Source: Cheiracanthium punctorium
Taxonomy: Eukaryota > Arthropoda > Arachnida > Araneae > Cheiracanthiidae
Length of the DNA stretch: 64,000 nucleotides
Assembly (NCBI GenBank): GCA_038373885.1
Contig: JAWZYV010019608.1
Span: 310,001-374,000 of the forward strand
Direction: 5' to 3'
The notes beneath the pieces were generated by a model. It was not told where the DNA came from, did not search any database, and was given only the letters and a program-made list of their open reading frames with translations. Each line of letters opens with the position of its first letter. Position 1 is the stretch's first letter. Shown piece after piece: positions 4,101 through 63,689 of the stretch. The position numbers and the translations under genes are program-made.

Positions 4101-7100
4101 AGCTACTGTAATTAAAATTATAGCACACACACACAAAAAAATAAATATTAATTAAAAACCACCATTTCAAATAAAAAGAAATTTACAGAAAACCAGCAAA
4201 TAAAATCCACAGACAAAAAAAAAAAAAAAGAAAAAAATTAACCACTCATATCCCAAGGATCAGAATCTATGAACTCCACGAAAAACAAAACTAAAATAAA
4301 TATAACTATGGATGTTAAACTTTGCCTTATACAAAACAGACATAGTACGCTTTCATTCCACACAAATGCTCAGCCCTACGCATCAACAGGCAAGGGTTGC
4401 CAGAAAAAAAAGGTCTCCAAGCTTCGCTCTGCACTGCTGGAGAAATATCGCCAAGTTTTCATGGTGTTTATTTAACGGAAAAGTACCCATTTTGATACTA
4501 GATATCAAATTTTGATTTCTTTCTCATTCTGTGTGTAAGCATATACGAACTCTGTTCAAAAGATTCAGTGAAATACATATTTTGCAAAAGGCATTCACAC
4601 ACTATGGCAAACAAAACTCATTGTCTTTCAAAGTATTTACCATCTCTTGTTATCTGCATATGACAGTCTTTTTCTGAAATGCGGAAACTATGTAAGAAAG
4701 GCTATATAGGAATGTACTCAGTTTGGAGGTCACATTTTGTTTGATCTCCTCATTCATTAAAAATATTTTGCATTTTCAAGAATATCTTTGATGCTGAAAG
4801 TAAACTAACTGCGAATGCTAAATCAGGAGAGAGAGTGTGTGTGTGAGGGGGGGGGGAGGAGCAAGTAACACAGTGTTACAGCCAGGGTTCGTTGATATAT
4901 ATCAGATACTTATTTTATAATAAATATCATGATATTTTTAATATTTTCAGACAAAGTGTGTGAAACTGATAAAGATCAGTCTAGAGTTTTGGTTGGTTTT
5001 CTCCAGATGTAAAGTGAATACATGTTATAACCTCTTAAAAAGTCCTTCAACCAAAGCTACACCCCCCATCATTTACAAACAGCCTTTGTGTAGCTTTGTC
5101 ATAATACAACATGAAAAAAAATAATTTAATCTTGTAATAGTTTTATTAATTTACGTTCTTAAACTGCAACAATTAACATGAATTGAAAATTTTGTTTTTG
5201 TTGAACATTTTTTATTCTAAAATTAATTAATTAAATGACATTTTCTTCATTAGGAAGCTGCAGATGTTGTTGAAACTGCCTTCAATGAATGTGCCAATGC
5301 TTTGCAGAGATTTGAAATGGTACAAGAATTTTATGGTGCTAGCTTTCGACATTTCAAAGTAAGGTTTTTTTTTTTCCTCTCTACTGCAAATTAATCTGTT
5401 TTCTGTCACACTGGTTATTAACTTTCATTTTATTGTTTATTTATCTTTTAAAGGAATCCAACATTCACAATTTAACAGAATTACTTGAGAAGAAGCCTGA
5501 AACTAAAGAATCGGTTATTAGAAACATGAAAGAAGAGCTTATGAAAGTTCTTGGAAAGTAAGAAATAGACTTAACTCACCTTGTAGTTTAAGGGAAGCAG
5601 ATTCAGGGTTGCTACGCGACCGGGAGAACCTGGAAAACTGGGAAAACTCAGGGAATTTAGAAATCGCTAAAAAAACCGGTAAAACTCAGGGAATTTAGAA
5701 ATCGCTAAAAAAACCGGTAAAACTCAGGGAAAATGAAGAATTTTCATGAAAACCGGGAAAATACAGGGAAAAATATATTTGCAGCGAAAAATTCATTTAT
5801 ATTTTTTAATTAATACAAATTTTAAATTTTTGTTTGGGAAAGATTATGCCTGTATTTCGTATTTCAGTAGAAAGTGAGATCGCGAACCATAACCTGCGCC
5901 TTGTTTATTGAAAAGCCGGAGTCACGCCCGTCGAAGCGATTGATTGGCGCCAGTGGTATGCCTATGCATCTAAGAGAGCTGGCTAGAGAAAGGGTATTCC
6001 CCTTTTTCCCTCTCAGCTCCGCTCTGTCGTATAATCTCTCTACGGAACGTTCCTTTAGAAAGGGCGATATTCACTTTTGCGCTTCCTCCTGGTGGATTTT
6101 CCCCTTCTAGTTCTTCCCCATCTGCTTGTATGTGGGCACTGCTAGACACACATCGCATGTTTGTTTTTATGGTTTTTACTCTTTCTCGCTGTTTAGTCTT
6201 GCTGTCACTTCGTGTGTACTCTTTTTTTTTTTTTTTTTTTTTTTTTCAAAATCTGCAAGGAGTTTATACCATGATGCCTTGCAGAGAAAGAAAGATGCTC
6301 AACAAAAGTTGCAAGATGAAGGAAGAAATAAACGAAAAGTTTCTGAGCAGATCAAAATATTACAAAAGAAAATACAGAAAATTATGGAGGAACAATCTGC
6401 TGGATTGTCTAACATCAACCAACAGATTTTGGAATTAAAAAAAAATAATAATAAATCTTTAGATTTACTAGTGAAAGTGTTTATTTTATTAAAAATTTGC
6501 TTTTTTTCCCCAATGAGCAGGCACTTATTCATCAATCATTTTGCCATTACTAAGGACCAAACTGCTGGTAATAAGTAATAATTTTAATTTACAGGGATAA
6601 AAATCTTCCACGGAATTCTGCATTTTAATTATTTTTATTCTAAAAAAAATATGTAGATGATATAATCACGGCAGAATTCCGAATCTCGTATCTGCCAACT
6701 CAAGTTCAATCTTTTTGGTAAATGAGTATTTCCTTTTCAGTATTTCTTTATAAACATTTCTAATGCAACTACAAAATACGTGAATGCTTATTTAAATTTA
6801 TGTTTATAAATTTCTTGAATTTTAAATGCTTCTGAAAGTTTGAATGTTAAGCTAAAAAATCATGACAGAGATTTAAATAAGACATTGATTTGCATAGATT
6901 GACTATGAGAAAAAGAACTGCTTTTCTTTTAAGTAAAGGTAAATGCAGTTTTTAATATTTATTTTTTAACACTTTTTGTCAATGCAACTAATTACACTGC
7001 AATATAATTTTTACACTATTTCTGATGGAAGTTTTGCAAAAAAAAAAAAAGTAAATAATAATAATATTAAACCTTCCAAATCAGCCTTTTTATGTTATTT

Positions 7101-9857: not shown

Positions 9858-12800
9858 GCTCATAAAAGGACTATTTTAGCTTGAGCTTTGAAATTTCTTG
9901 TAATATTTCGTAGATTGTTGTAGTTAAATAAATGTGATGAAAGAGAATTACAGAAATTGTAAAGATTTTTTATTTGTTAAAGATGGAGCCTCAATATAGA
10001 AACTCTTTTTAAACCAAGCATAGACCATTGTGTTGCAGTAACAAAACATAAATAATGTATTGAGTCATTTCAGTCACAATCATTCATTAAGAAATCATGA
10101 TTAAGTGGTAGAGAGAAAGGAAAATTGCTGTTCTTTGCCTTTGTTTAATAAGGTTGAAGTTGATAAAGTCACTTGCTGTTCTTTGCCTTTGTTTAATAAG
10201 GTTGAAGTTGATAAAGTCACTTATTTTGTCAAAATCAATTGTAGCTTGAAAAAATTACCTAAGGTTTTTTATGTAAAAGAAACTCTGCTGTTTTTATAAA
10301 TATTAAGTGTTTTACTGAGTGAATTTTTAATTTTGCTAAATACTTTTTTCAGTTAAAAAATAAATGATCTTTTTTTAGTTTTATAATTGAGTTTTTGTTT
10401 TATTAACACCGATTCTTTTCTTTAGGTCTGTTGTTAAGCACAGTTTGATTCACCATGTGTTGTTGCAATTCTTTTTAAACTGTGATTCTGCTTCACGATC
10501 AGAAATTATTGAGTCTCTGAGAGAAGTGGTGCCTGAGATATTGCATACTAAAGATGGATCCAGAGTAGCCATGCAGTGTGTGTGGTATGGTGATCATAAG
10601 GTAAACATCTTTTTTTGAATATAATTTTGTTTTGCATGCAGATATCAGTAAAGAATTTTGACTTTAAATAATCAAAAAATTGTTTGTTGCAATGCGACTT
10701 ATTTTTTTGCCTATGAGTTGTATGTCTTAAGCGAGAATTTTGAACTTTATCAGTGTACCTCTCACATTTAAAATGGTTATTGCAAGGTTATATACTGATG
10801 TGGATTTTATAAATTTTCAAAGAATTAAAGTGATAATTTCACTAATTTAAAAGTTTTGTCTTTTCATCTCTAGACATTGAAATACGGATGAATGCTGAAT
10901 CTATGAGGATTTTTTTTTCAATTGATGGGCACTTGCTTATCAATTATTTTTGTCACTGTTTGGTTGCACTTTCTCTGCAGCCAGAATGAGTTGGTGTGCT
11001 CTAATTGGCTGAGAGGGGATTTCTGGGGCAGGGGGTAAGCAGAGTGCACAGGATTTTCAGTCAGATTCGTGTGGGAGTGATGATGGTCAGATGTCTGTGA
11101 AGAGACAAGAGGAGATTTTTTTTTGTTGTTGTTGTTGGTACCAAACTAGCAGGATGAAATAGCGACGGGGAGGAAATAATAAATTTATGCTCACTTTCGT
11201 AACTACAGTTTATCTTTTTTTGGTGAAACCGCCAACACCTCAAGGCCGCATTCATCAGATCTCCTGCCTTTCATGTAATTGTGGAACTGGAATTCCTGGT
11301 AACAATATGACTTTGGGTCGCCAGTGAGCTAGCTGTCACATGAGGGTACAGAGCCCAACAAGCAGATGCTAGTTTTCTATTTCAGAGGCCGATTTCAACT
11401 AAAGTAAGAGAAATCCTCCTTCAAACCTGGTCATGGTGAGGTGTTCTTTACATTTACCTTGCCTTATTGAAGGAGCCCACAGCAGCGGGTTGCAGCATCT
11501 AAGGGATGGATTTCACATAATTCATTGGTCTTGCTCATCATTTTCTACCTGCTTGTGTTTAAGTATGATTTCTTTTGTAGATGCTGCTATTTTTTTTGAG
11601 CTGATGAATAGTATCTTCTGATCGTTGGCATGCTCGCACGTTTCCACGCCCCTCCCTTTTTCCCCCCCTCTATCCCTTTGTCAAACTAGCTAAGTGTCCC
11701 TTTCTATGCAGTTTATTAGAATTGATTACTAATTTATTTATTTTTACCACATTCTCTCATTATGATTCATTTTATTTATTTGATATCTGCATTGCTTGAC
11801 TAAATTAATTTTTTTAATAGTAAAATTGCTCTATTTAACTCATGAACGAAACACCCCCAATTAACTTTAATCCTTTTTGTTTGTTTTTTTCATATTTTAT
11901 TATTTTTTAAAATTTGCTTTTGTTATGTCCAGCGACTATGTTTGATCAACAAAGTACAAGTAAAAGAAAAAGGGATTTTTTTAAATATAGCATTGTGTAA
12001 TTTTTATCATGAAAGTTTGTGTTATAATTTTTTTTTTTTCTTCTTTCTTGGGTACCCAAATTTTTTCACTTTTAGAATTAAACATGTGTTAGGCTGATTT
12101 AACTGTGTAGCACAGAAGTTCTATTACCTTATTTGCCAGCATATTTATTTTATTCCTTTATTTTGTTGACATCCCTTTTAGTTGTTACGATGATTTGTTC
12201 AGTAAATTGAATTTATTAATAAAATGCATTTTTACAATCCCATTTTTAGTTGTCTTTATTTTGTCATTTACACACACAAGGGCAGTAAGTGAAAATCTGA
12301 GTTTTTTTCTTTTGGAGGCTTTTGTCTAAAAGTCATGTTTGTAGCAACACAACAAAGCTGCACTTTTTCAGCATTAGGCAGTTTATCCAGTCGTCTTCTA
12401 TATTGATGTGAAAATGCTTGTGTTTCCAAGGGTTAAGGAGCTGTTCATTAGACTTGAAAGAATGGCCTGCTCTTTTATATTGATTGTACTACTGTAGTTC
12501 TATATAGTTAATAGTTTCATAAACCTTTATGAGAAAATTGTGCATTAATAAATTTCTGTTTCCACTAGGATCGTAAAAAAATTGTCAAGCACATGAAAAC
12601 TTTTGTAAAGAAAATAGCTATGGAAGAACATGGTCATATGGTTTTGTTAGCATTGTTTGATTGTGTTGATGACACCCTACTTATTGATAAAGTAATAATC
12701 AAAGTAAGTACACCGTGTCTATTAACTGTAAATTCAATGAACTCTTTCAAATTTTTCTGTATGAAACTGCAAAATGAGATTTTGATGTAAGTCAAGAGTC

Positions 12801-28539: not shown

Positions 28540-29757
28540 CACTATCTGACCAAAAGTATCCGGACACCCAGTGGTATGTACTTTGAGTGTCCTGAGGCAG
28601 ATATTAATATGATGTTAGTCCCCCTTTTGCATCGATGACAGCCTGCACACCTCTGGGAAGACTTTGCACCAGTTTTTGATAGGTGGCCATAAGAATTGAC
28701 TTCCAGGCATCCATCACGGCTGATGTGAGTGCTTGCAGTGAGGATGGTCGATTTGGCTGGCTACGTAATATGCGCTCTAATTCGTCCCAGAGGTGTTCTG
28801 TGGGATTAAGATCGGGGATCTGGGAAGGCCAGTCCAGTTTTTAAACGTCCATTACGTCAAACCACGTCTGTGCAAGTCTCGATGTGTGAATGTAGCAGTT
28901 ATCCTGCTGGAAGAGAAATGGGCCTTCCCCGTAATATTGCCACAGAGTTGGGAGTGCAGCATTGTCCAGAATGTGTACCTACATCGCAGAGTTTACGTTT
29001 CCAACCACAGGAACTAACGGACCCAGACTCAACTACAAGAAACGCCCACCACCATTATACCGCCACCACGAAACTTAACAGTCGACACAAAAAATGTTTT
29101 CCGGGCATCCATCAAACTCAGACGCGTCCCTCCGACAGCCAGACTGTGAAGCGAGATTCATCACTCTAAAAAACAGTTTTCTACACGTCCACAGTCCAAA
29201 GACGGTGATCTCTGCACTATTGCAATCAATGCTTCACATTCTGTGGAGTGATGTTCGGCTTTTCAGCGGCTGCACGACCATGGAATCCCAAGTTGTTTAA
29301 CTCTCGACAAAGAGTCCTGCTGCTAACACTGACGCCTGATGAACTTTGCAACTCCTGAGAAATTTGCATCAACGGGGATTTGCGATTGTTTTCCACTACC
29401 CTTTTCAGAGTTCTGCAGCTCCGTTCACTAAGATTTTTATGCTCTACTACTCCGTTTTTCTGCAGTTTCACTGTCTCGACGTTTCCACTTCACAATTACA
29501 TCACTCACAGTGGATTTAGGCTTCTGTAGAATGTCCGCAATCTCACGAACTGATTTCCCACAAAAGTGGCATTCCACTATACTGCCACGATCGAACTCAC
29601 TAAGCTCCTTTGACTTACTCATTGCTTCACAAATGCATACATACAACTGGACAAACCACTACCAACAGTTTAATAGCTTTCGATTACGCATCAAATTTGC
29701 ATCAGCCGCCAAAACCACTTTTTTAGGGGGTGTCCGGATACTTTTGGCCAGATAGTG
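28540..29757 (-). mobile_element. Tc1-like transposon, 1.2 kb, defective
   Basis: TA target duplication (28538-28539, 29758-29759) and 30-bp inverted repeats with one mismatch, beginning CACTATCTG(A/G)CCAAAAG at 28540-28569 and 29728-29757. Most of the interior is a broken transposase gene on the minus strand. It lies about 300 bp downstream of the PUM3 stop. Confidence 0.93.
28600..29622 (-). pseudogene. Tc1-family transposase pseudogene
   Basis: The start ATG is at 29622 on the minus strand: MSKSKELSEFDRGSIVECH, continuing into the helix-turn-helix segment (SVREIADILQKPKSTVSD). A frameshift near 29440-29470 moves the frame to SPLMQISQELQSSSGVSVSS.RTLCRELNNLGF, the second paired-like DNA-binding half. 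The C-terminal DDE portion is recognisable only in pieces across frames, including the 'NP.EHLWDEL' block read in reverse near 28770-28800. Several frame breaks make it inactive. Confidence 0.85.
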
Positions 29758-34605: not shown

Positions 34606-37060
34606 AGCCATTAAGAAAGAAGTGTGAGAATAAGCTTGGACACAATTTATGTCATATTTGTGATATGTGCAATTCTAAATAGCAGGTGGAGCACAGTCCC
34701 CAAAGCACCCTCCCCCCTGGCTACAAGGCGAACTATAATTCACCTTTTTTTTACACAAATATTGATACTTTTATAGACACTAGCATTCCCATTATATAGT
34801 AAGGTTTGGCGCTTTCTTGCTAAAAACAGAAGATACTGCAAAGCTTGGTTCAGCCAAAATGACCAACTTTGGCAAATTTTGACATTTCACTGACAATCCT
34901 TGAAAGTGTTTCACCATTTTTTTTGAGTAGCCAAACATCCGTGTCTGAAATTAATAGCATTCGAATACTAATAAAGCATTTTGACATTATGTTTCAATGA
35001 TGTCATCCGAGTGACAGCTGACTACACACAATTTCTGTGCAGATTCTCCTATTGTATTTAACCCAGTAAAAGGTTATTAGAAACATAAGTTTAACCCATT
35101 TATGCCTAGTGTCCCTTTTTTGGGACAGCATTTTCGCTATTAGTCGAAAACGTTATTTATTTTTCCTAGCCTTTATTCATGAGTATTGAGCCTCAACTTT
35201 ACAAAATATTTTAACATGACCAAGTAGGATGTTGATGTTTCGATTTTTATGCATAATGATTTTAAAAGAAATCATCCCTTGTTCAAGAAGTTGACATCAG
35301 AAACTTATCTATTATTTCTGTTATCAGTGAAAATTGAAGAAAGTCGAAAAAATATCCAGGCACAAATGGGTTAAATTACCCATAATCACTTCAAGATGTA
35401 AAAATGCTGCAGGAGAATCAAAGTTGAAGGTTTGCTTAACCGATTCTATACATTATAATAATCCAAATGCAGCTTGTTGCTTGGAAATGCACCCTGCAAT
35501 TAAGTCCTCTTACTTTGTATAATACATGATTTGGGAGATTTTCCCTTTGAAAAAAATTGAGTAAAACATGTAAATAATCTGGTATTCAATGAAATAAACA
35601 ATGAGAAACTTAACATAGTTTTTTGAATTAAATAATCAACTTTTAATGGGTTTCTTGTACCACCCATCCCCCTTTTTTGTGAAATATAAAGCAAGAAATA
35701 TTCATAGAAACTGTTCTAAGAGCCAAATTGCTGCAGGTTCGAAGATTAACCACCTACTTGAACTTGTTTAATAAATCTATAGGTAGGGGTACACAGTTTT
35801 CATTGTACAGTAAAACCTTTTAATAGCAGACACCCTTGAAAACAATTTATGTCTGCTATCAAGGAGTGCGATAAAGAGAAATCTCATATTTTAGAACTTG
35901 ACATATGATGCATACTTTTCAAAATACAATTGGTGAATATTTCAACATGCATTAAATTGAAGAAATAAACATATTTACCGACCTTATGAAAGAGCATTGC
36001 CTTTTAAAAGAGAAAATTTCTGATTTTCTGATGATTGAAAAGAGTTTTCGGTAAAATGTTTTTCTTTTAAACTTAGATTTGCTGCATTTTCAAAGGAAAT
36101 ACATGAATAATGATTTTATAATAAAAGTAAATTTCTTTAAGAAAATTTAAGATGCCTTTCCTTTCACTACTTTATTCATTTTTTTACCGAAATGCTTCGA
36201 AAAAAGGCATATGAAGAAATATACCCGCTCTCTCGCTAGGAAGAAAAACTCTTATGAAAAGCATTTCAGTTACATTGACAAGCCACACCATCTATTGAAA
36301 AATATTAATACTAAATAGTCTCTTCACAATAATGAAATAGTATACGGGCAAATCAGAAAAGGAAAGGAGAAAATATCGATGCCCGTACGCTGTACGGGCA
36401 AACCAGTTGAGGCCAATTTTGGGTAGCATGTACACTGTACGGGCAAACTTCTTAAGGGGTTAAATTATTTACTCATTTTACTTAGATTAAGGCCATGCCA
36501 AAAAGCAAGTATGCTGAAAATGAAACTTTCCCCATCCCCAATAAAAATGATATGCATGCCCTTCACATGGAATAATCTGAATTTAAAAAACCACAAACAA
36601 AACAAAGAATCTGCCTGCAAAACTACATAAAAATACAAACAGAAAATACCGCTATACTGAAGATCAGCAGGGCGAGACACCAAAACATCAACATGTATTC
36701 TTTTAGTAAGTAACACTTCAACAAATAATAATTAAATCAAATTTCATTTTTGAAAGCCTTTACCATATAAGGGCACCCAAGTTTAAATTTTTTTAAGGTA
36801 AAAGTTAACAAAAATATTTAAAGTGGATGGAATTGCACTTCCATAACTGATTTGCTCTTGCACCCAGCCAAGGTTGCCCTTTAGCGTCATCTTTTGGTGT
36901 TCAGATTTATAGGCCAAAACCGTAGCATGGAGTTTCCCTTCGAACCCATGATACCTCTGTGCTCATCCCCCATATGCCCATTCTAGTTCCTCTCATACCA
37001 ACGAAAGAGAGTTTTATCACACATCCATGTAAAATTTTTTTTAATTCATTATATATCATT
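34606..37060. other. Intergenic with a TTAA MITE and minor repeats
   Basis: Contains the piggyBac-like MITE at 35.1 kb, a Tigger-type left end near 35809 (CAGTAAAACCTTTTAATAGC) without a clear partner, and three GTACGGGCAAA-type motifs at 36342-36450 ending beside a TTAA (GGGGTTAA near 36455-36462). No gene recognised. Confidence 0.45.
35095..35370. mobile_element. piggyBac-like MITE, 276 bp
   Basis: TTAA at 35091-35094 and 35371-35374; ends CCCATTTATGCCTAGTG and, reversed, CCCATTTGTGCCTGGAT. Confidence 0.8.
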
Positions 37061-37685
37061 ATTAGCACTAGGATGCTATTTCGCTCAATCCCAGATTTTT
37101 GTCTATGTGATCTTGCCAACAGGTTTTGAAGTTATGAACTTTTCAAATGTGTTTGCTGCCATAATAACGTAGAAAGAGGGGGGGGGGCATGTTAATAAAA
37201 TGTTGCAAGTCGCAAAAGGTTTGCAATTTTTGATAGTGGATCGCTAAGTTTGGTGCCAAATGCAACAATTTATAATAAAGGGGGGAGTATAGTTAGAAAA
37301 TGCCTGGCGAAGATTGTACAATAGTTTTAGCAGGCGATTTTAATAGATTCCAATTCCAAAGAAGTATTTTAGGGAACAGAGAATACAAATACAGTATACT
37401 CATGGATTATGATGCCCATTCTGAACAGTAAAATGCTAGAGGCTAGTTGGAATATGCTTGGCAAAGGTTGTAACAGTTTTAGTAGCTGATCTTATGATAG
37501 ATTTTGGTTCCAAAGAAGTGTTTTATTTAACAAGAAAGGCAAACACGGCACTCTTAGATTATGATGCCTATTCCAAACAGTATTTAAAATGGTGAAGTAT
37601 AGTTAATATGCTTGGCAAAGACTGTAAAACAGTTTTAGTAGGAGATTTTAAGATGATTTCGATTCCAAAAATGTGTTTTATGGAA

Positions 37686-38082
37686 CAAAGAGTTTATTCC
37701 TATTTTAACACCCCCACTTTTGCCAAGCTAAAAAATAGCCACACTTTAGCAAGCTTTGCAGTCATGGGTCTCTAGGTGTTATTGCACAAGTTTCAACGCT
37801 CCCAAAAGAACATGAAAACTAAAGTGAACAAATTAGTGCTAAACGCACCAGTTAAGGAATTTGAAGACAACTATTAAAACTACATTAATTGGCAACCCTA
37901 AATAAGTAATTAAATCCTGTACTTGCATGTTGTTCCGAATTGCCATTTTAAATCTAAATTACAGTTGCCACATGAATACAAAATATCATTTACAGATGTT
38001 TGTCGCCCCTTTGATAACTACATATGTTTAATTATCACCACCTTGGCGAGAGTCAGGGCATTAAAGTAGGAATCAACCCAAG
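37686..38082. mobile_element. 390-bp inverted-repeat insert within the tandem array
   Basis: Left end GTTTATTCCTATTTTAAC...GCCAAG and right end reversed GTTGATTCCTACTTTAAT...GCCAAG. The same insert lies at the same point of the repeat unit in locus 2 (about 54178-54576). It therefore belongs to the ancestral element, not to two independent events. Confidence 0.7.
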
Positions 38083-38239
38083 AAAGGCAAACACGGCACA
38101 CTCATGGATTATGATACACATTCGAAACAATATTTAAAACAATGAAGTATAGTTGGATTATACTTGGCGAAGATTGTAAAATAGTTTTAGAAAGCGATTT
38201 TAAGAGATTTTGATTCCAAAGATGAGTTTTATAGAGCAA

Positions 38240-38291
38240 GGAAGATAAATACAGCACACTCATGAATCATTATGCGCTGTATTTATCTTCC
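38240..38291. repeat. 16-bp perfect hairpin at edge of locus 1 array
   Basis: GGAAGATAAATACAGC at 38240-38255 is exactly inverted at 38276-38291, around a 20-nt loop containing repeat-unit text. Confidence 0.85.
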
Positions 38292-38330
38292 AACTCTCAC
38301 TTAATAAGGACTTCACTTTCCAATTTACTA

Positions 38331-40597
38331 AGGAAAGAAAATAGGGACGATGCATAAATGATATGCTTTTAATATATAGTATTTTAGTGTGCATTTAAAA
38401 GCTGAAAGTATTTCAGATTTTCTTACTTTTTTTTTTAAGAGTAATCCAAGTATAATAATAATAGCCGCTTAAACTAGAATGAAAATATGCTATGGTTTTA
38501 GGAGAAATTTAGGATAAACAAATTTGCATTCTAGGTAAATGTTGGGCCCTGAACATTTTCTGCACCTATTTTAATTTGTTCATAGTTTTCTCTTTTTACA
38601 CTAAGGTTCAATGCTTTTCTTTAAACAAAAAATGATCTTTAAGTCAAAAATTTCAAAAACAAACTGTCAATGTTTAGTTTACACAGGTCAAAACAACTGT
38701 CTTAAAAATTTTACCAGTAAATGTGTAAGTATCATTGACTTTTTTAATGAAAAGTATTTGATATTGGACATAATTTCAATTTTGTGTGAGTAGATAAAGG
38801 ATTTTTTTTTTAAACCAAGGAAAAAATCTTTCTTCTATCTTGACAGAAGTAAAATACTCATAAAACCAACAAAATGAAAAGTAACACTTGTCATTTAAAA
38901 TTTAAATTTAATTCCTATATATATAGTTACATCTTTAATGATCCTAAGAAAAATGTACAAATAGAGTAGTGGTCAACAAGGAACAGCATTTTCTTTCGTG
39001 AACTCACATATGAGCAATGCAACAAAAGCCAATGCAAGAATTTTGACAAAAGAATGTTCAAGGTTTCAAACATGCGAATACATAACCATTAACAAAGATA
39101 AGCAGCATAAAAAGATGATTATATAATTTTAGAACATTTACTGGAATGCTCTTTTAATGCACAGATAATCACAATTAAGAAAAAAAAAAAAAAAGAAACG
39201 AAAACATACAGTAAAGATTCAGAGATGTTTTAATAAAGAAAAAATATAATATCCATGCAGATAAAAACTTTAACAGATAAATAGTAACAAGGTCTATAAC
39301 TTTAAAATGAGAATGGAAAATACTTTAAAGGACAGAGAATGTTCCCAAAGCTTTTAGATACAAAGTATAAACATTTAAATGAGAGTAATTTTTGCATTGA
39401 TACTTAAAGGTTACATTAAAAGAAAACATTTTTTTAAAAATCTCAACTTTTTCAGTAAGCATTCTCTTAAATATAAAAAGAGCTTGATACTGAAAATCAG
39501 GGTTCCTCAAACTACATTGTAACTAGAGCAGTCCATGTACCATACTAAAACTACTGAACAGGACTTGCATACTTTTGAAATGAAGCTCAAAAGAAATTTA
39601 AAGGCACTCCTTTAAAATTAAAGCTAAACAAACAATTTTCTAATACCTATTATTGTATATTAATGGTGATTTTTCCCAAAACTAATCAATTTTTTAAACA
39701 ACTTGTGCTGAAACAAGCTTTGAAACAACCAGTTTCAGTAACAAAATTACATACACTTACTTTTGCACCTGAATGACATTTCCGATTGCTTAAACCATAA
39801 TTTATTAGCATAAACTTTCGGAAATTAAGTTTAATCTGTTTCGTACCAAAGTTTTGCACAATATGACAATGGCAACCTGTATGCATACAAAAAAGAATTC
39901 AACTAGTTTAGCTTTAATTGTTAATGGAATGAAAGGTGAAATTTTTTTTAAGTACCAATTCAGTTACTTTTAAAGACAAACTCCTCCCCCCCCCCCTTTC
40001 AAAAAATCAAATATTTTTTCAAGCAATTTTACTGACTAAAAATTCTGATAATACTCCAGAGATTAGTCTTGTAGTAATGATCCATAGACAATTAGTAGAT
40101 CATATCGAGTATCAGAAGTTTGAGAAACCCTGCTGTAACAAATTAAAATCTATAAGAGTAAATATTGAAATATACAACTAAATTCATCATAAAACCTGCA
40201 CAGAGACATACTTTACGGCCCCTGAATAAAAAGTATCAAATTCCACAATTTTCACCAGTTTATTTACAAGCACAAAAATAGTAAAATTTTATGGCCTAAA
40301 CAAAAAAACTATTGAAAAAACTCTGGCATGCAAAATTTAGAGATTTTTGCATAGATCCACAACAAGAGAAACTAAAGATAACAAACAAGTTTAACAGCAA
40401 GATGATTTGCAATGCTTTTTTTCCATAATTTATCTGTAGTATATTTCATAAATAAAATTGCATATATTTTTTTTTAGAAACTTTTTTTAAAAAGTAATGT
40501 ACATAAAATTAACACAGCAAACAGCCTCAACTGAACTCAGGACAAAGAACAGTCTGATTCGAGTGACTCTGCTGAAAATTTTGAATGTCACAGAATT
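38331..40597. other. Intergenic and SNX3 3' UTR side
   Basis: AT-rich, no recognised element. An AATAAA on the minus strand (TTTATT at 40259-40264) lies about 340 bp beyond the SNX3 stop and could be its polyadenylation signal. Confidence 0.4.
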
Positions 40598-43700: not shown

Positions 43701-46700
43701 GAAACTGTCTCTTTACAAGCTGTACTACATACTGAAATAAATGATAAATTTGTATCGGTTGCAAAACTTTTAGGAAAAATTCTTAAAAATCTGAAGTTTT
43801 CACAAAGCGTGTCATTCTTTGAAAAATGTTGCAACTCAGATCCATGTTTAAGAATTTTTTCTAAAAATTTCACAAAAGCCACAGCTTTTTCAGTTATTGC
43901 AGTGTATAAAGCAGCTTATGAAGAACCATCTGGAATTTTTTGGAGACCATGGTGCTATTAGTTTATTTCAATTTGTGTGCCAAGATTAAAAACAATTTTT
44001 TTTTCTTCGACATACACCCATAACCTTTTTGCACCGGTTCACAGTTGAGAGTTTTTGTCCCAGAAAGTGGCAGAATCTAAGATTTCAGTCCCCTACTTCT
44101 CAGCTGAAGGAGCATGCCTTGTCTTGTTAGGTAGGTGGGGACAAATATCACTGACCATGCAAGTCCCCAAACAAAATGCAAATATGTAAGCCCAATCCCA
44201 GTCAACTGACTACCACTTTCTCCCCAGTCTATTATCTACAAATGTGGCAGACTCTTCCACAGTATAAAAAAGAAATTCCCACCTCTAGAAATTCCTTATA
44301 CATGTTTCATGAAGGGTAAATGGATTTCCCGTCAAAAGAGGGAAAAGAAGTCTTGGGTAAGCCACTTTTACCAGCGCTGTTCTTTACTCATATTTATTTT
44401 TTGGTACAACTATTGTACCGCCGGAGTCTGAGGGTTAACACAAATGTTTGCAAATAAATAATTTTAGTGAAAATTTCATTTGTTGCATCATATTTTAAGT
44501 TTTTAGTTTGATTACTCTTAAATAAGTGTTGTTTTATGAAATTTAGAATTTTATGGTAAAAATACTCTAAATTTATCCCCTGAAATTGCAAAATCCTGAA
44601 ATTCGCACAAACCCTTCCCCTTTGCGGTGTGGATTTCTGGAAGTCCACTGTACAATATGTATGCTGGCTTATATATCATCACTTCAGCATACAATCAAAG
44701 CTAAACTTGAGCAAGCTACAGCAGGTTTGCACTGCAAAGCTGCAAAAGCTAATTTAAGCTGCTACAGCATAGCCTCCCTCAGTATCCCTTTGTGTACCCC
44801 TTGCAGTATGTACTCCACTATGGAGATCACCGCTAAGCAAATAGAGAGGGAGGGTCAGTTATTTATATTTGAACTGAAGAGTAAGGTTAAAAGATTTCTT
44901 GGTCCAGACAATGTTAAATACATAAATAAACAAAAGTATCAGAAACATCACAATCAAGTTATCAAGTTCTCCATATTACAATTAACATTTGAAGAGTTAC
45001 AAAGTAATGACAAATACTTATTACAACGAACTCACTTATTAATAAAACTTTCAAGCCCTTTTCTTCTGTCTTCAATAAATTCCTCATCATATATGCCGTC
45101 ATCACCTCGTAAAGGTAGTTGTCGCTTCCAGGCTTTACCAGGGAGTGGAGGGACAACAATCTGAAAACAAAATAAGTACTTAAATTAAAATGCACATTTT
45201 TCCATAGGCTAACCCTCAAAAAGGTATTTAAGGGGCTGGAGCGAATCGTTTATAAATAGGGACTTCTGATGATTTCCAATTAATATTTTGAGATTAAATT
45301 TGGAACACTCCCTGACTTTGTCAAACTGAAATTATTATAGAACAGGGGAAATTATTATAGAACAATAAAATCAGTAAGAAAAGCATAGTTTGTATATTAA
45401 TGAAGCATAGTGTAAAAAGGCAAACAGTTAAGCAGGTTTCCTGATCTCATCTGTTTTTCAATTAATATTTTGTGATTACATTTGGAATATCACGACTTTG
45501 TCAAACTGAAATACCCTGTTTTTCACTTACCATTCTTGACCCTGAATAGCTGTAACTTTTAATGTGTCAAGCAAACGACATAGGCAGCATCAGATCTTTC
45601 ATATAGGACAGTGATGGGTGAAATTGAACAGCTTTCATTTTATTGAGTCCCAGTGGAAGATAACTTAGATTGTGGTATCCTAGTTTTATACCAATTCCAG
45701 ATGAGAGACTGGTACTTGGTGATTGAATGTGATTTATCAGTGCAAGGTCCAGAACAGGACATAAAGCACCAAGCACAAGACAATAGTTAAAATCAGTGAT
45801 AAAAGTATAGTTTGTATTAATCCAGTATAGTGTAAAAAGGCAAACAGAGGTGAAGTTAGGTAAACATGAACCCAAAAAAAATTATTAATACTGCAGTTGA
45901 AATATTGATACGAGACACTGACAGAGCTCACAAACAGGTGTAACCTAGCCCCTTAACAAATGCTAATATGTCAAAAGGCAGTGTCCTATTCTCAAACTTG
46001 TGAGTATTATGTAAGTATGATGCAGTGGAGCAAAAAGTTAAGAACAAATGAATGGTTTTATTTGTCAAACTATTATCAATTTGCAGGTTCCAGTTACCCT
46101 GCCATTTTTGCCACAAGAACTTTCGGATAGCAGGCTTTAAATCAGAAGTAGGGGACAGACTGGATCAACCGAACCACAGTACTTTTAGCAGCCGCATCTA
46201 CATGCTCATTAAGCACTGTTTTTCTTTTTGTACTCATTATTATGGGAACTGAGTGCTAACAGACCAGGAAGAGTTGACAGTAATTAGAGGCAAAAGAAGC
46301 ATTTAACAGATTTGCCAATTGACAGTAAAAAAAAACAAAATTCCTGAGAAACCAAACCTACTAAAACTAGAACGTAGAACTACTGAATGACGATTTTTGA
46401 TAAAATATGCAGGTTAAACTTTTCCTGCATCTAAATCATTGCACTCCTCTTCATCTTCGAGAAACATGGGTAAAATGTTCATGCTTGTGTGATGGCAATG
46501 ATACACATGGACAGACTGCCTACGATGGGGAGTGTTTTGGTCAGAGGACTTCCTAAGGGGGTTTTAATTCATATTCCTGTTACATCTGGAGAAAACTGAC
46601 CAGAACTCCAGACTATTAGATCAACAGCTATGCAACTGGGCCCGAACCAACCTTCATACTTCAGCCATCTACCATTCTGAGTCTTATCCACTCAGCCATG

Positions 46701-49700
46701 ATGAAATGAACACTTATCAGGAATTGATGCAGACAAAAATTGGGTCCATCTTTTTGTGGCCCCTTCAGAAAATTACAATCACTTAAAATGGTCCTTTATT
46801 GGCATTTTATCCTACATTTTAATCTGTTTTGTCAATTACTTAAACAAAAAAAGTCACTTATTAAAAAATGGTATGAAAAATGACAAAATATAAGTGTTGA
46901 AATTCACAACATTATGTATTGTATACAAAAAATCAGCAGCTTTCACAAAAATGGGACCCTGTAAAAAATTTCTGGATCGATCCCTGCTTATTGAAAATTT
47001 TTGTCTCTTGTAAGCAATTTATACAGTAACCTTGATATTGCAAATAAACAGGGTTGTTATGATTTTGCCCAACCCGAAAAAACCCGGGTGGGTTTTTTCA
47101 AAAAAGCCCACTTGAAAAAACCCGAGAAAAAACCCAACTGGGTTTTTTCAAAATTTTAACTTTAATTATGTAGATAATACATCACTTAATATCAGTACAC
47201 CACTTGTAAAGTTTATAAACAGCTCCCTACCTCCCCCCACACCACCACTACCTAAGGGGGGGGAAAAAAAAAAAATCAGACTTTACATAGGCATTAAAAC
47301 TTTCTAGAGTATTCATTTTAATACAGATAGGCATAAAAATTTAAAGATTTTTTAACCATAAAAAAATCGTGTTGTAACTAAGCACTAGTATATCACTTAA
47401 AATTATGACTAATAGTCAATTTATCTAAGAGCAAACCATGATTGGGGTGGTTGTTGTAATTGATTTATACATTTTTTCATGTATGATTAATAATTGTAAT
47501 CGGTTATTACTATTAAATTAACCACTTTTTATTTAATTGATTTTTGTAATCAATTAGTTTGCTTTAAGTTGTATTTAGTAATAAGCAATTTTTTTTCAAA
47601 TATTCTGAAACCCCATCCCTTCTTCTGAAAAAATCCAGATAAAACCCGAAAAAACCCCAAAACCCCTGAAAAAACCCAGTGGGTTGGGATTTCTCTGAAA
47701 AAGCCCAGGTTTTTAACAACCCTGCAAATAAATGTAATTTCCCTTACAAACTGACCCTCTTATTTCATCTTATTACCTCGAATTTTTCCAGTGCCTCTTT
47801 GACTTGGAGATATCGAGGTTATACTGAATAACTAGCAAATAAAGTTCACACAACTGCCGATATAGAATTTTTGTCAGACACTGACATCAGCTGCCATAGA
47901 TATAGATGCCGAGAGTAATAGTGTATTGGGAGTAATTCAGTAAAACATCTGTTAAAACCTTTACTAGCAAGCAGGTTAAAATTCAGTTTTACACTACATG
48001 ATAATAATTTTAGCTTTAAACAAATTTCATAAAAAACATTTTTTCAAAGATAAAATGCAAGTTATTTCATTTCTCAATAACGAGTTTAAAATATCACAAA
48101 AGATTTATAGACAAACGAAAAAATAATTTACATTTCTAATCATTTAATTTTTGAAATCAAACAACATACATCTGTTTTATAACATCAAGCAAAAATAAAT
48201 GGCTAAAATACTCATACACAGTGCAAATACTTCAAGCAGTCAACAAATAAGCTAAAATTTAGAGCAAAACTTACTTTACTGTCTCTTTCTAGTTCATTTC
48301 TTAGCCATTCAAAATCACTGTATCGTCTTCTAACACTGGAATCTTTCAGCTTGAACACAGGCAAATTTGTCTAAAAAAAGGATACATTATCAATTTTTGT
48401 ACATTATTTCTCTAATAATAAGTATAGTAGAAGATAATCAACATTGAAAAATTTTGGGGTATACAGCAAAAATCCGTTTTCCAAGTGATTACCATGAAGT
48501 ACCATCAATACTCTACACCAGTTGACAGTGTTTCCACTCAATTTTTCAATTCAGATTCCCCCTGATTTTCCAGAATTTTTTTTTTTTTTTTTGCAAAATT
48601 CTAGACTACATTGTTATGACATGCACATAATTTGCAAATGCCATACATAGACTGCTCTTTGTGGGGTTGGGGGGAGGGGGCAACTGACCCCTCACTTTAA
48701 AAATTGGGGACAAGGCCCTCTACTTTTGAAACTTCAAAAGTAAAGTTCCATCAAAAAATGGAGAGAAACCCAACATAGTAACCGAAAACAATGAGTACGA
48801 GCTAGTAAGAGTTCGAGAAAAATAATTAGGGAAGGTCACTTAATGACATTAAAATCCAGTAGCATAGCCCAATTTTACAAAACGAAAATCTTTAGCCTCC
48901 CCCTCCACTTTTATAAGGTGCACCCATGCCACCATATCAACACTGATCATTATAAAACCTTAACACCATCATTATTTTCCACTGATCAGTTGCAACCCTG
49001 AGTTTAAACCTTTTCATAAACCATAAGAATTAAATAACATACATCACTAAATTTGAGACTTGTGGGCTACAATGGTCCCAAAAATTCAATCACCAAGCAA
49101 CTGAGATGTATTGCCAAGATGAAGGCTAAGTATAAATTTTAATTAAATATAATGAAACCAGGGGTCAATGAAAATGGGGTCGGTTTTGCTGCCCCTTCAC
49201 AAGATTACAATCAATTAAAACGGCCCCTTCACAAAAATACAATCCATTAAAACGGCCCCTTCACAAAAATACAATCCATTAAAACAACTATTTATTAGCA
49301 TTTTACCCTACATTTCAATCCGTTTCATCAATTATTTAACAAAAAAGTTACTTTTATAAAAAAAAATTGGTAGGTATGAAAATTCACAAAAATAAGTATC
49401 TAAATTCACAAAAACAAGCAATTTTCCCAAAAATGGGACCCCAGAAAAAATCCCTGGATTGACCCTTGAGAAAACTATGGAAAAACAATAGACATTGGCT
49501 CACTCAGATTAAATCACACAGAGTCTAGACTCATCATTTAAACATGTCAAAAGAATGCATTAAATATCCAAGCACAATGCATTGAGTTAAATTTTAAAGA
49601 AAGCTTCATAGCAAATGTAAGGTTGCCTTGGCAATCTTTATCACCTGGGGTAATAACTCACATTGTGTAGAAATTAATGCTGGGCAAAAAATAAGGAATG

Positions 49701-53556: not shown

Positions 53557-55325
53557 AATCCAGGTAAAAAATTACAATAGTACCTGCTTCTTAAATTTTA
53601 TTTTAATGTCTTGATTTCAAAAATCTTCGAAATATTTCGTTCTTAGCTTTAATAGCAAGAACTCTTCAATACCTGTAATGATACTTGCTAACTTTAGAAA
53701 ACTTTTTTAAATGATAGTAAATTATTTGGCAGTAAAATCTACTTTGACAGAATATTCAGAAACAACTTTTTTTTTTTTTTTTCGTTTCACTTATTACTCG
53801 TGAAAACAACTTTCATAAAATTAAATTAACAGGATGACAGTGAAAGATTAAAAAATGTAGCAAAATCTGGAGCACTATCATATTTTAAATGCGCACTAAA
53901 GTACTATATATTATTTAAAAGCGTATCATAATCCATGCGTCCTCCCTATTTTTTTTTCCTTATTCCATTAAGTTGGAAAGTGTATCATTATTCATGAGTG
54001 TGCCGTATTTTTCTACCTTGTTCCATAAAACACATCTTTGGAATCGAAATCTATCTTAAAATCTCCTACTAAAACTGTTCTACAATGTTCGCAAAGCATA
54101 TTCCAATTGTAATTCACCATTTTAAATACTATTTGGAATGTGCATCATAATCCATGAGTGTGCCGTGTTTGTCTTTCTTAGGTTGATTTCTACTTCAACG
54201 CCCCGACTCTCGCCAAGGTGGCGATAATTAAACATATATGCAGTTAACACGACGAGTTTTCGTATTTATGTGGCAGCCGTAATTCTGAAAAAAAAAAAAA
54301 ATGTCTCTTTGAAACAACATGTAAGTACAGCATTCCATTACTTATTAATTTATTTTGGGTTGCCAACTGGTGTTGTTATAGTAATAAAGTGTCTTCAAAT
54401 TCTTTAACTGATGCGTTTAACGCTAATTTGCTCACTTTAGTTTTCATCTAGTTCTTTTGGGAGCGTTGAAGCTTGTGCATAACTCCTAGAGAGACCTAAG
54501 ACTGCAAAGCTTGCCAAAGTACGGCGATTTGTTAGGTTGGTGAGAGTGGGGGCGTTAAAATAGGGATAAACTTTTTCTTGTACCATAAAGCACATCTTTG
54601 GGATTGAAATCTATCTTAAAATCGCCTAATGAAACTGTTTTACAATTTCGCCAAGCAAATTCTAACTATACTCTAAAATTTTAAATACTGTTTGGAAGGG
54701 GCATCATAATCCATGCCTGTGCCGTGTTTGTCTTTTTCCTTTCATAAAACACATCTTTAGAATCGAAATCTATCTTAAAATCGCCTACTGAAACTGTTTT
54801 ACAATCTTCGCCAAGCATATATTCCAACTATACTTAAAATTTTAAATACTGTTTGGAAGGGGCATCATAATACATGAGTGTGCCGTGTTTGTCTTTCTTG
54901 TTCCATAAAACACATATTTGGAATTGAAATCTATAACCTTGTGCGACTTTCAACAATTTCCCTAATAGCACGGAACATCACAATGACGTTGCCATAACGT
55001 CCCTGTGAGTCACATAGGTCGCACTCACACTGGTGATCATAAGTGACGTCAACTGGAAGTCACAATGTAACTTGCCAGTGACAATAACTTGTGACTTCTT
55101 TGTGACGTCGATGTGACGGATCGTTTGTGACGTCTTGCCAGATCTTGCGACTTTTCGCTTTTTTTGCTACTTTCGAAAGCAACATGCGACTCAATTTTAC
55201 GACTTTACGATATTGCTACTTTCTTGCTACTATTTTTATGATTTTTTGAATTTTAAGTAATTTTGCGAATTTCTCAAAAAAAAAGTTTTTTTTTTTTTCA
55301 GTTTTAAATCAGTGGAACATTTAAG

Positions 55326-55490
55326 CAGTGCCGGATCTAGGGGTGGGCAAGCCGGGGCCCCTGCCCCGGGCGATGCTTGCAGAAGGGCGTCAAATCGTCT
55401 ATGAGACAAAGAAAACTTGACAAAAAATAGGATGGAGGGCGCCAAAAAGATATGTTGCCCCGGGCGCCAGTTCTGCGCGATCCGTCAATG
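55326..55490. mobile_element. hAT MITE, 165 bp, CCCCGGGCGCC-rich
   Basis: Perfect 8-bp duplication CATTTAAG (55318-55325, 55491-55498). Ends CAGTGCCGGATC and, reversed, CATTGACGGATC. GC-rich core with GGGGCCCCTGCCCCGGGCG. Nested in the 1.45-kb element. Confidence 0.9.
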
Positions 55491-55514
55491 CATTTAAGGG
55501 GTCAGGTACCTTAG

Positions 55515-56229
55515 AGCGTTGAAAATCTCCACGAAAATTGACCAAAACTGCATTTGTCATAGCTCTACCAGTAACAATTCTGTAAACTTGCAATTTTTAC
55601 CAGTTATTTAGAAATCTTTTATGAATCTTTTACAGCTCTTGGAATAGTTCTACATATTAAATTAAATTTTATATAACTAAAAATATTCGAGCTTATTTTT
55701 TGCTTATTTACAGTCTTGCGCGCAGCATTTCATAAAATATATGTATCACAGTAACTTAAAAATTTCAATACATAAAGAAGAAAAATATCCTTAAATCAAA
55801 ATGACGAAAAAGAATTTTGTTAGGATGCATGCAACGTTATAATTTTTGCATTTATTTGCATAATTATGCAAATGATAGTTATAGAAATTGCAATTATTCT
55901 TTTTTTAACAGGAAAGAAGACTCCCAGCAAAATTCTTTTTCGTCATTTTGATTTAAGGATATTTTTCTTTATGTATTGAAATTTTTAAGCTACTGTGATA
56001 CATATATTTTATGAAATGCTGCACGCAAGAGTGTAAATAAGCAAAAAATAAGCTCGAATATTTTTAATTATACAAAATTTAATTTAATATCTAGAACTAT
56101 TTCAAGAACTGTAAAAGGCTCATAAAAGATTTCTAAATAACTGGTAAAAATTGCAAGTTTACAGAATTGTTACTTGTAGAGCTATGGCAAATGCAGTTTT
56201 GGTCAATTCTCGCGGAGATTTTCAACGTC
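55515..56229. repeat. Inverted repeat with roughly 300-bp arms
   Basis: Left arm 55515-55820 and right arm 55926-56229, roughly 95% identical by eye, around a spacer of about 105 bp. Landmarks such as CTTGCAATTTTTACCAGTTA and AAATCAAAATGACGAAAAAG occur once in each arm, inverted. Confidence 0.9.
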
Positions 56230-56589
56230 GTATTGAAGTCACAACGTCGTGCACAAGTCAGAGTGTGACTTCATGGTGACGTCACATTGTGACGTTGACG
56301 CAGAAGTACATTAGACAGTCAAGGCAACTTATTTGGGACTCATTCGCGACGTCCCGTGACGGTCTTGCACTTCGCAGTGACTTCACATTTAGGTCATGGT
56401 GCTATTGGGGTTATTCTCCCCCACCTCCATGTTATCTGGCAATCACATTTCAAAAGATCTTCACCATGACAGTTCATGTCAACAAAACCTGTCTACAAAT
56501 AGTGTCTACAACTAGGGCGACAAAGTCGCGTAGACAAAAATCTGGGAGCGAACGAAATAGCACCCTAGTGCTAAAAAATTAGAAAATAA

Positions 56590-59619: not shown

Positions 59620-59689
59620 TATGTTTTTGGATAAAATTGCAGAAATATCTGATGCTATCAACTAGCATAATCCATATTGTTGTATTGCA

Positions 59690-59925
59690 TTATGGCAAAG
59701 CTACGCAAGGGCTATCTGCCAAGGATAAGGTGGTGTCTTGGCCGGAGGACTTTATAAGGGGTTCTAATGCGTATTCACCTTACATCTGGAGAAAACCGAC
59801 CCAAACTCCAGACCGTCAGATCGGCAGCCGCGCGACAGGCCGGTACCCTGGACCTCCACACTTCAGCCCTCTACCATTTTGGGCGTCTAATCCGCTCGTC
59901 CGTGGTGAGGGCCATAATCCAAAGA
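59690..59925 (-). mobile_element. SINE family A copy
   Basis: In reverse orientation: the body TTACATCTGGAGAAAACCGAC, CAGATCGGCAGCCGCGCGAC, and the head CACTTCAGCCCTCTACCATTTT. The right end is the degenerate tRNA-like head near 59890-59925. Confidence 0.75.
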
Positions 59926-62530: not shown

Positions 62531-62849
62531 CGATTGCAACGAAATTCATACGTGTTAGTGATACGAAAGGAGAGAGGGTTCCCCCACAAGAGGCATTAAA
62601 ACTGCTTTGTTGAAGCACTATACTGAAATTTTTGTCAATTCCTATAGCTTTTAATATACATAGGCGCCTTCAAATATGAGTTTAATTCACAAGAATGCCC
62701 AGGTAAAAAAAAAAAAAAAAAAAAAAAAAACTGGGGTTAAACAGGGCCATAATCAGGGGGAAAAATTCGGAGGAGGTCCAACCGGTGAAAAAGACAGAAT
62801 TTTTCACGCAAATACTTCATTATTATTATTTGTTTGTTTGTTCTGCTTC

Positions 62850-63065
62850 GTGGCAGGCTTGCCCTAAGGGTATCTGCCTGGGGAGGGGGGGGGTCGTGTC
62901 TTGGTCGTAGGACCTTTTAAGGGGGTTCTAAAGTGTATTCACGTTACATCTGGAGAAAACCGACCAAAACTCCCGACCATTAGAATGATAGGCCCCGACG
63001 TAGAGCCTTCACACTTCAGCCCTCTACTACGTTCAGTTCCTTAACCACTTAAAAATGGTGGGGCC
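62850..63065 (-). mobile_element. SINE family A copy
   Basis: Reverse orientation, with TTACATCTGGAGAAAACCGAC, CTTCACACTTCAGCCCTCTA and head remnants at the right (CCTTAACCACTTAAAAATGG). A G run interrupts the left part. Confidence 0.72.
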
Positions 63066-63424: not shown

Positions 63425-63650
63425 AACGGGCCTCACTATGGCACAGTGGTTGTGTCACTGAAAATGGTAGAGGGCCGAAGTGTGAAGGTCCCGGTTCGGG
63501 TCCCATCGAGCGGCTGTCGGTCTAAAGGGTCGGGAGTTTTGGTAGGTTTTCTCCAGATGTAACGTGAATACGCGCTGGAACCCATCAGAAACTCCTCCTA
63601 CCGAGGCACCCCCCCCCCTTTTCCTTGGCAGATCGCCCTGGCGTAGCGTT
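63425..63650 (+). mobile_element. SINE family A, clearest copy
   Basis: Head: CTATGGCACAGTGGTTGTG (A-box region), AATGGTAGAGGGCCGAAGTG, then a B-box-like GGTTCGGGTCC (63493-63503). The body follows: GTTTTCTCCAGATGTAACGT, GAATACGCGCTGGAACCC and a C run. Begins right after the TTAA of the preceding MITE. Confidence 0.78.
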
Positions 63651-63689
63651 GCCATAATCACACAAACAAACAAAGAATTAACGCAAGGA

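Follow-up and report, generated by a model that had tools for sequence, protein, structure and literature searches.

DeMarco et al. (PMC1636069; this and the other papers are cited for the excerpts available) characterized TRC elements by TIRs that start with CCC, 2-bp target site duplications, and a Transposase_21 domain. In their material, the 2-bp duplication was seen in 7 of 14 copies of SmTRC1, and the Tribolium TRC TIR is given as CCCTAGTAGCACCGAATATTTGTAAAA. CCC termini and 2-bp duplications were also the grounds for placing a Hydra element in TRC/CACTA (PMC4298943), while the ends of CACTA-like lineages are CA..TG in most cases (PMC12730594). TTAA is the target duplicated by Kolobok, which has 5'-RR..YY-3' termini (PMC9587614), and by piggyBac, which has 5'-CC..GG-3' ends (PMC10045372). 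PIF/Harbinger elements duplicate TWA, and the first base of their TIR is usually A or G (PMC4482050).

We examined how a 1.45-kb insert in the spider Cheiracanthium punctorium compares with these systems. It lies in a window of 64,000 nucleotides, the whole stretch of DNA that was analyzed. According to the first-pass annotation, the insert is a single foldback transposon with GTGACGTC-rich ends and no obvious superfamily. That description was not borne out: the ends and the interior belong to different families, each of which is found alone elsewhere in the genome. Very probably the unit is a three-layer nest of nonautonomous DNA transposons, in which a TRC-type CACTA/EnSpm MITE contains a hAT-type MITE and a Kolobok-like foldback element (Table 1). 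The three elements are new families of known kinds, and nested MITEs are a known arrangement.

Table 1. Features of the nested insert and related loci (positions in the window unless a locus is named)
Feature	Position	Strand	Basis
Target site duplication on the left, 2 bp (TT)	54958..54959	.	Sequence; 28/43 family loci duplicated
Target site duplication on the right, 2 bp (TT)	56411..56412	.	Sequence; family loci; junction alignment
Empty paralogous site, within a further copy of the composite (161-bp tandem repeats)	37150..37222	-	Local alignment
Outer element, left part, read as TRC-type CACTA/EnSpm MITE; starts with 5' TIR CCCTAATAGCACGG	54960..55325	+	
Left subterminal array of GTGAC / GTGACKTC motifs	54960..55140	+	Motif counts versus shuffles
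Left 8-bp duplication CATTTAAG of the hAT-type piece	55318..55325	.	Sequence
Nested hAT-type MITE, 165 bp, ends CAGTGCCGGATC / GATCCGTCAATG	55326..55490	+	8-bp duplication
Right 8-bp duplication CATTTAAG, holding the foldback's TTAA target (55494-55497)	55491..55498	.	Sequence
Nested Kolobok-like foldback MITE with GGGG..CCCC ends, inserted at TTAA; lacks its final 19 bp and the right-hand TTAA	55498..56227	+	
Foldback left arm, pairing with 55962-56227 (266 bp, 94%)	55517..55782	+	Inverted-repeat comparison
AACG microhomology at the deletion junction, common to foldback and outer element	56224..56227	+	Match ends
Outer element, right part; ends GTGCTATTGGGG (3' TIR)	56224..56410	+	Genome copies; consensus
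TGACGTCA/GTGACGTC motifs in Transposase_21 leaders	L077 400-490; L078 410-500; L080 535-625	L078, L080: reversed strand	

The text that had been described at 54900-56420 and 37150-37222 matches the sequence. The terminal arm of the tandem-repeat composite is broken at 54960 and resumes past 56410 (locus 2), and the same arm is unbroken in the reverse of 37150-37222 (locus 1); the empty-site logic proposed for this pair holds in local alignment. Namely, when the flanks of locus 2 were joined minus one TT and compared with the reverse of locus 1 by blastn, no gap fell at the junction, which reads AACAATTTATT / AACATTTTATT, and the 14 gap positions of the alignment all lay away from it. A global MAFFT alignment left the junction stretches of the two loci unpaired, owing to an additional repeat unit in locus 1 at this place. 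The 12-bp TIRs CCC(T/C)AATAGCAC were found at both ends of the insert, and the tiny target duplication, claimed to be one or two T at most, is 2 bp, TT. The insertion with its TT duplication is real. Its boundaries at 54960/56410 recur in genome copies and agree with the gap-free alignment across the junction, and the empty site and genome copies together uphold a discrete DNA-transposon insertion in a single event.

The genome (2.53 Gb, 15,171 contigs) holds many further copies of the ends. The left part of the insert (54960-55325) matched at least 39 other loci at 87-93% identity, among the best 40 of 828 first-look candidates with the window included, and the right arm (56228-56410) matched at least 39 others at 90-94%, among the best 40 of 620. 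With 6 loci common to both, this gives at least 72 distinct other loci. Taken together, the two parts in the window (54960-55325 and 56224-56410) form a noncoding MITE of ~576 bp with termini CCCTAATAGCAC; the left part is 93% identical to the family consensus, and the right part is 94% identical to consensus positions 390-576. The consensus (576 bp) was built from 24 of 30 fetched left-arm loci, leaving out the window copy, L011 (for its length), and L019, L024, L033, and L035 (no located 3' end). Copies lie at a mean K80 distance of 0.047 from the consensus (range, 0.005-0.062, over the 24 best-scoring loci), and the family is possibly older than these distances imply because the best-scoring copies were measured. 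As the first-pass annotation stated, the insert has no evident coding capacity. The longest stop-free frame of the consensus spans 62 codons, and the two longer stop-to-stop frames touching the insert, one of 82 aa (55239-55484, minus) spanning the hAT-type piece and one of 100 aa (56280-56579, plus) extending into the flank, are taken as chance. Rfam and tRNA scans returned zero matches. One copy, L018, contains a segment of the MITE's right end plus flank twice, the second time 344 bp further on.

Target duplications were scored at 60 loci (56 distinct); both ends were located in 43, and 13 were dropped because an end was missing or altered. The flanking 2 bp are identical in 28 of the 43 loci, against a mean of 5.8 for shuffled right flanks, with 0 of 5000 shuffles reaching 28. 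Identity over 3 bp is not enriched (3/43, versus a shuffled mean of 1.4). The duplicated dinucleotides vary: TT and AA occur 6 times each, TA and AT 5 times each, CA and CT twice each, and GC and CC once each. An exact 2-bp duplication is missing from the other 15 loci; the termini are altered in 10 of these and intact in 5 (L012, L026, L051, L053, and L068). Where the duplication is present, T stands three positions to its right in 22 of 28 cases, and the mirror position to its left carries A in 15 of 28; judged from these raw counts, the outer element perhaps has a palindromic target preference.

The outer element is best read as TRC-type CACTA/EnSpm, since its ends are CCC..GGG and the 2 bp that it duplicates vary in sequence; the assignment is made on termini and duplication length, as the Transposase_21 stretches read yielded no autonomous element sharing this TIR. 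The consensus of 24 loci has a TIR starting with CCC, as do the majority of the 43 loci, though some show single-base departures, and the 2-bp duplication is present in the 28 loci described above. By eye, the Tribolium TRC TIR (CCCTAGTAGCACCG) agrees with the 3' TIR of the outer element (CCCTAATAGCACCG) at 13 of 14 bases and with the 5' TIR (CCCTAATAGCACGG) at 12 of 14 (PMC1636069). Among the three TRC TIRs in that excerpt, and as far as their letters are given there, only that of Tribolium matches beyond CCC; the Aedes TIR, CCCAGTCAAC, is unlike ours past those three bases. The TRC elements of SmTRC1, Tribolium, and Aedes differ from the outer element in size and content, as they carry a Transposase_21 gene and measure about 4.7-9.2 kb (PMC1636069), whereas the outer element is short and noncoding. 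Spongebob shares CCC termini and a 2-bp duplication in its 5.8-kb Hydra form, and other invertebrates have short relatives of it, 433-496 bp long, which by description recall the short outer MITE; its TIR, CCCAGCCAACATTGAC, differs (PMC4298943). CMC-type viral MITEs are also nonautonomous and CACTA-like, with 2-bp duplications, but have CAC..GTG termini, unlike the outer element (PMC6004678). The TIR core of classical (plant) CACTA elements, CACTA, is not that of the consensus, which is CCCTA. Jiang et al. (2016) reportedly described CACTA-derived MITEs in the ant Camponotus floridanus, which resemble the outer element in being nonautonomous and CACTA-like, a likeness by description only.

Might the outer MITE have a different affiliation at the superfamily level, for instance with ISL2EU or some other PHIS group? 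We regard this as unlikely, even though PHIS groups also give duplications of 0-4 bp (PMC10045372), the CA..TG ends of most CACTA-like lineages speak against a simple CACTA label (PMC12730594), and no autonomous partner with the outer TIR appeared in the Transposase_21 stretches read. ISL2EU, as described in PMC4482050, needs an AT duplication within A|AT|T, a pattern unlike the mixed dinucleotides of the 28 loci, where AT accounts for only 5. PIF/Harbinger needs a 3-bp TWA duplication, for which the 3-bp identity reported above gives no sign, and its usual A or G start does not fit the TIR either. The near-match of the Tribolium TRC TIR also argues for the TRC-type reading. On that reading, a TRC-type CACTA/EnSpm transposase of the Transposase_21 family would have cut and pasted the outer MITE in trans via its CCC TIRs.

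The observation that CRE-like GTGACGTC motifs crowd the subterminal zones was confirmed by counts. On either strand, GTGAC occurs 15 times in the subterminal zones of the insert, compared with a mean of 3.3 and a maximum of 10 in 2000 dinucleotide shuffles. In the consensus, the 380 bp of subterminal sequence hold 24 occurrences (mean, 3.9; maximum, 11; 2000 shuffles), and the middle holds one. Same-strand pairs of GTGAC spaced 10-14 bp apart number 8 in the consensus (raw count). In other CACTA elements, subterminal arrays are binding sites of the transposase or of an accessory protein, and the GTGAC arrays may, by analogy, play the same part here. A more ambitious reading, to which we give very little credence, is that the GTGACGTC/TGACGTCA arrays are putative platforms for host bZIP factors (CREB/ATF type), scattering cAMP-response-like enhancers genome-wide and coupling transposition or nearby genes to the cAMP-response pathway. 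If this were true, a MITE family with hundreds of first-look candidates would spread enhancers through a 2.5-Gb genome. Several TGACGTCA/GTGACGTC motifs also occur in the 5' leaders of Transposase_21 loci, in 3 of 6 read, all of one lineage and without TIR similarity; this is in keeping with the bZIP reading.

Between the two outer parts lie two other mobile pieces. The shorter is flanked by 8-bp duplications of the kind expected of hAT elements, at this single locus, and its ends form an inverted repeat at 10 of 12 bases (by eye). The longer is the foldback. Searched with the full 1451-bp query, the genome gave at least 39 other loci at 90-98% identity (among the best 40 of 2073 first-look candidates), which matched only positions of about 530-1268 of the query; this segment is the foldback interior. 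Seven other copies that were read measure 742-757 bp and run GGGGTCAGGTACC...GGTACCTGACCCC with small differences. Six of them have TTAA on both sides, the seventh has TTAA/TTGA, and their arms are about 93-95% alike over 320 bp. In the window, the arms continue at 55778-55825 / 55922-55969 (48 bp, 96%). The inverted repeat with 300-bp arms described by the first-pass annotation is thus highly similar, though not quite near-identical.

The TTAA target and the GGGG..CCCC-type ends of the foldback agree with the 5'-RR..YY-3' termini of Kolobok (PMC9587614); piggyBac was rejected, as its ends are 5'-CC..GG-3' (PMC10045372). The foldback departs from Kolobok in that most of its length is taken up by inverted arms (about 320 bp). 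It would have been moved by a Kolobok-type transposase, and the 165-bp piece by a hAT transposase. The earlier expectation that the arms would yield a long dsRNA if transcribed is supported by a very stable predicted hairpin (-445.5 kcal/mol, versus -134.7 in 20 shuffles), but one that belongs to the passenger foldback family. The dsRNA-forming part is therefore a separate, abundant family (2073 first-look candidates with the full query), and the siRNA question belongs there.

The copies and junctions indicate how the nest was assembled. The ~576-bp MITE with CCCTAATAGCAC TIRs entered the 161-bp tandem-repeat composite, duplicating TT, and both the 165-bp hAT-type MITE and the ~745-bp TTAA foldback entered at CATTTAAG, in the middle of the outer MITE, where the undisturbed consensus reads CATTTAAGTCACAG...TAACGTCG. 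The order of these two arrivals cannot be told, because either order gives the same text. Since two unrelated mini-transposons later jumped into the outer element, the element that made the insertion does not own the big hairpin, which came with a passenger. On the right side, similarity to the foldback runs up to CAACG (56227), and similarity to the outer element begins again with AACGTCG (56224); the two share AACG, and a deletion therefore joined two AACG words. The sequence between those words is missing, namely, the last 19 bp of the foldback, its right TTAA, and ~30 bp of the outer MITE, a loss most simply explained by microhomology deletion.

The idea of a single foldback transposon family, with GTGACGTC-rich ends and spanning all 1.45 kb, draws on the fact that the insert runs uninterrupted from one TIR to the other and is flanked by just one 2-bp duplication. 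Yet in the 43 two-ended copies of the outer element, 42 measure 538-710 bp, and only the window copy reaches 1451 bp. The foldback is present in 0 of 29 other outer-element loci tested (left-arm loci; among a further 29 right-arm loci, those with both ends located were judged by length), as is the 165-bp hAT-type piece, and outer arms are present in 0 of 7 other foldback loci. Both inner pieces also own separate target duplications. Among the loci scored (the best 40 of each candidate list), a single family is refuted, and we assign it next to no probability. A different objection would be that locus 1 is a deletion or excision derivative and not an empty site. The composites are only distantly similar around the junction (61 of 86 positions identical in the blastn alignment), which leaves some room for it; nonetheless, the local alignment crosses the junction with exactly one TT and zero leftover TIR bases, and the 2-bp duplication of the outer family is established independently, which makes such a derivative highly improbable, although a precise excision that restored one TT keeps a small probability. 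The three-layer nest inserted into a composite that is empty at locus 1 is the reading we retain.

The first-pass annotation had also envisaged, besides further copies, an autonomous partner with the same ends; the copies were found, with conserved boundaries, but the partner was not, in the Transposase_21 stretches read. A profile search for Transposase_21 (PF02992) scored 10 loci in the genome and none in 14 control genomes, with open frames of up to 833 aa. One of these proteins, compared with a large protein collection, matched 90 proteins at E values up to 1e-10; those with names include proteins of spiders, fish, ants, and ticks, the best named matches being from Araneus ventricosus (42% and 45%). 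The outer TIR had no match in the 10 loci as first fetched (L073-L082), where the nearest strings differ from the 5' TIR at 2-3 positions; L073 has one such string, and L077, L078, and L080 have one within the transposase frame. No matching outer TIR was present in the downstream flanks of L077-L080 or the upstream flank of L077, and about 2.1-3.8 kb on each side of L074, L075, L077, and L082 gave only strings with 3-4 mismatches. Each of the last four loci has one inverted pair that starts with CC, agrees at 11-12 of 14 bases, and lies between identical dinucleotides; such pairs are unlike the outer TIR and probably due to chance. A DUF1258 (PF06869) profile found nothing in the genome, a null that is uninformative because the control genomes also gave nothing. 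In viral contigs, the outer TIR 16-mer had 4 exact matches, which extend to 16-17 bases only and are judged to be chance, and the foldback TIR had none. TIR strings searched in literature text matched three papers, all with unrelated titles and abstract openings.

An odd-looking unit thus resolves into three element kinds with clear nesting, an example of nested MITEs mistaken for one foldback. The outer family adds to the case for an animal branch of CACTA elements that is recognizable by its CCC termini together with 2-bp duplications.

Other features of the window deserve mention. The composites at 37286-38433 and 53850-54934, each built from tandem units of ~161 bp, lie in inverted orientation to each other and share 76% identity over 1.1 kb. 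In the composite flank, a near-palindrome, AATAGCAYCCTAGTGCTA, is common to 56540-56580 and the reverse of 37055-37100, within a 42/47 match and close to where the similarity of the two composites stops. It resembles words of the outer MITE TIR (AATAGCAC) and of the Tribolium TRC TIR (CCCTAGT), and it may be the composite's own end. A dispersed repeat of ~200 bp, with 71-79% identity, occurs at 46492-46704, 59689-59908, 62825-63049, 63445-63678, and 4978-5126 and is possibly a SINE-like family. From translations read by eye, we take 28607-28840 (-) and 29229-29489 (-) to be fragments resembling a Tc1-type transposase, and the frame at 10391-10615 (+) presumably resembles an exon of a Pumilio-domain protein of the PUM3 type.
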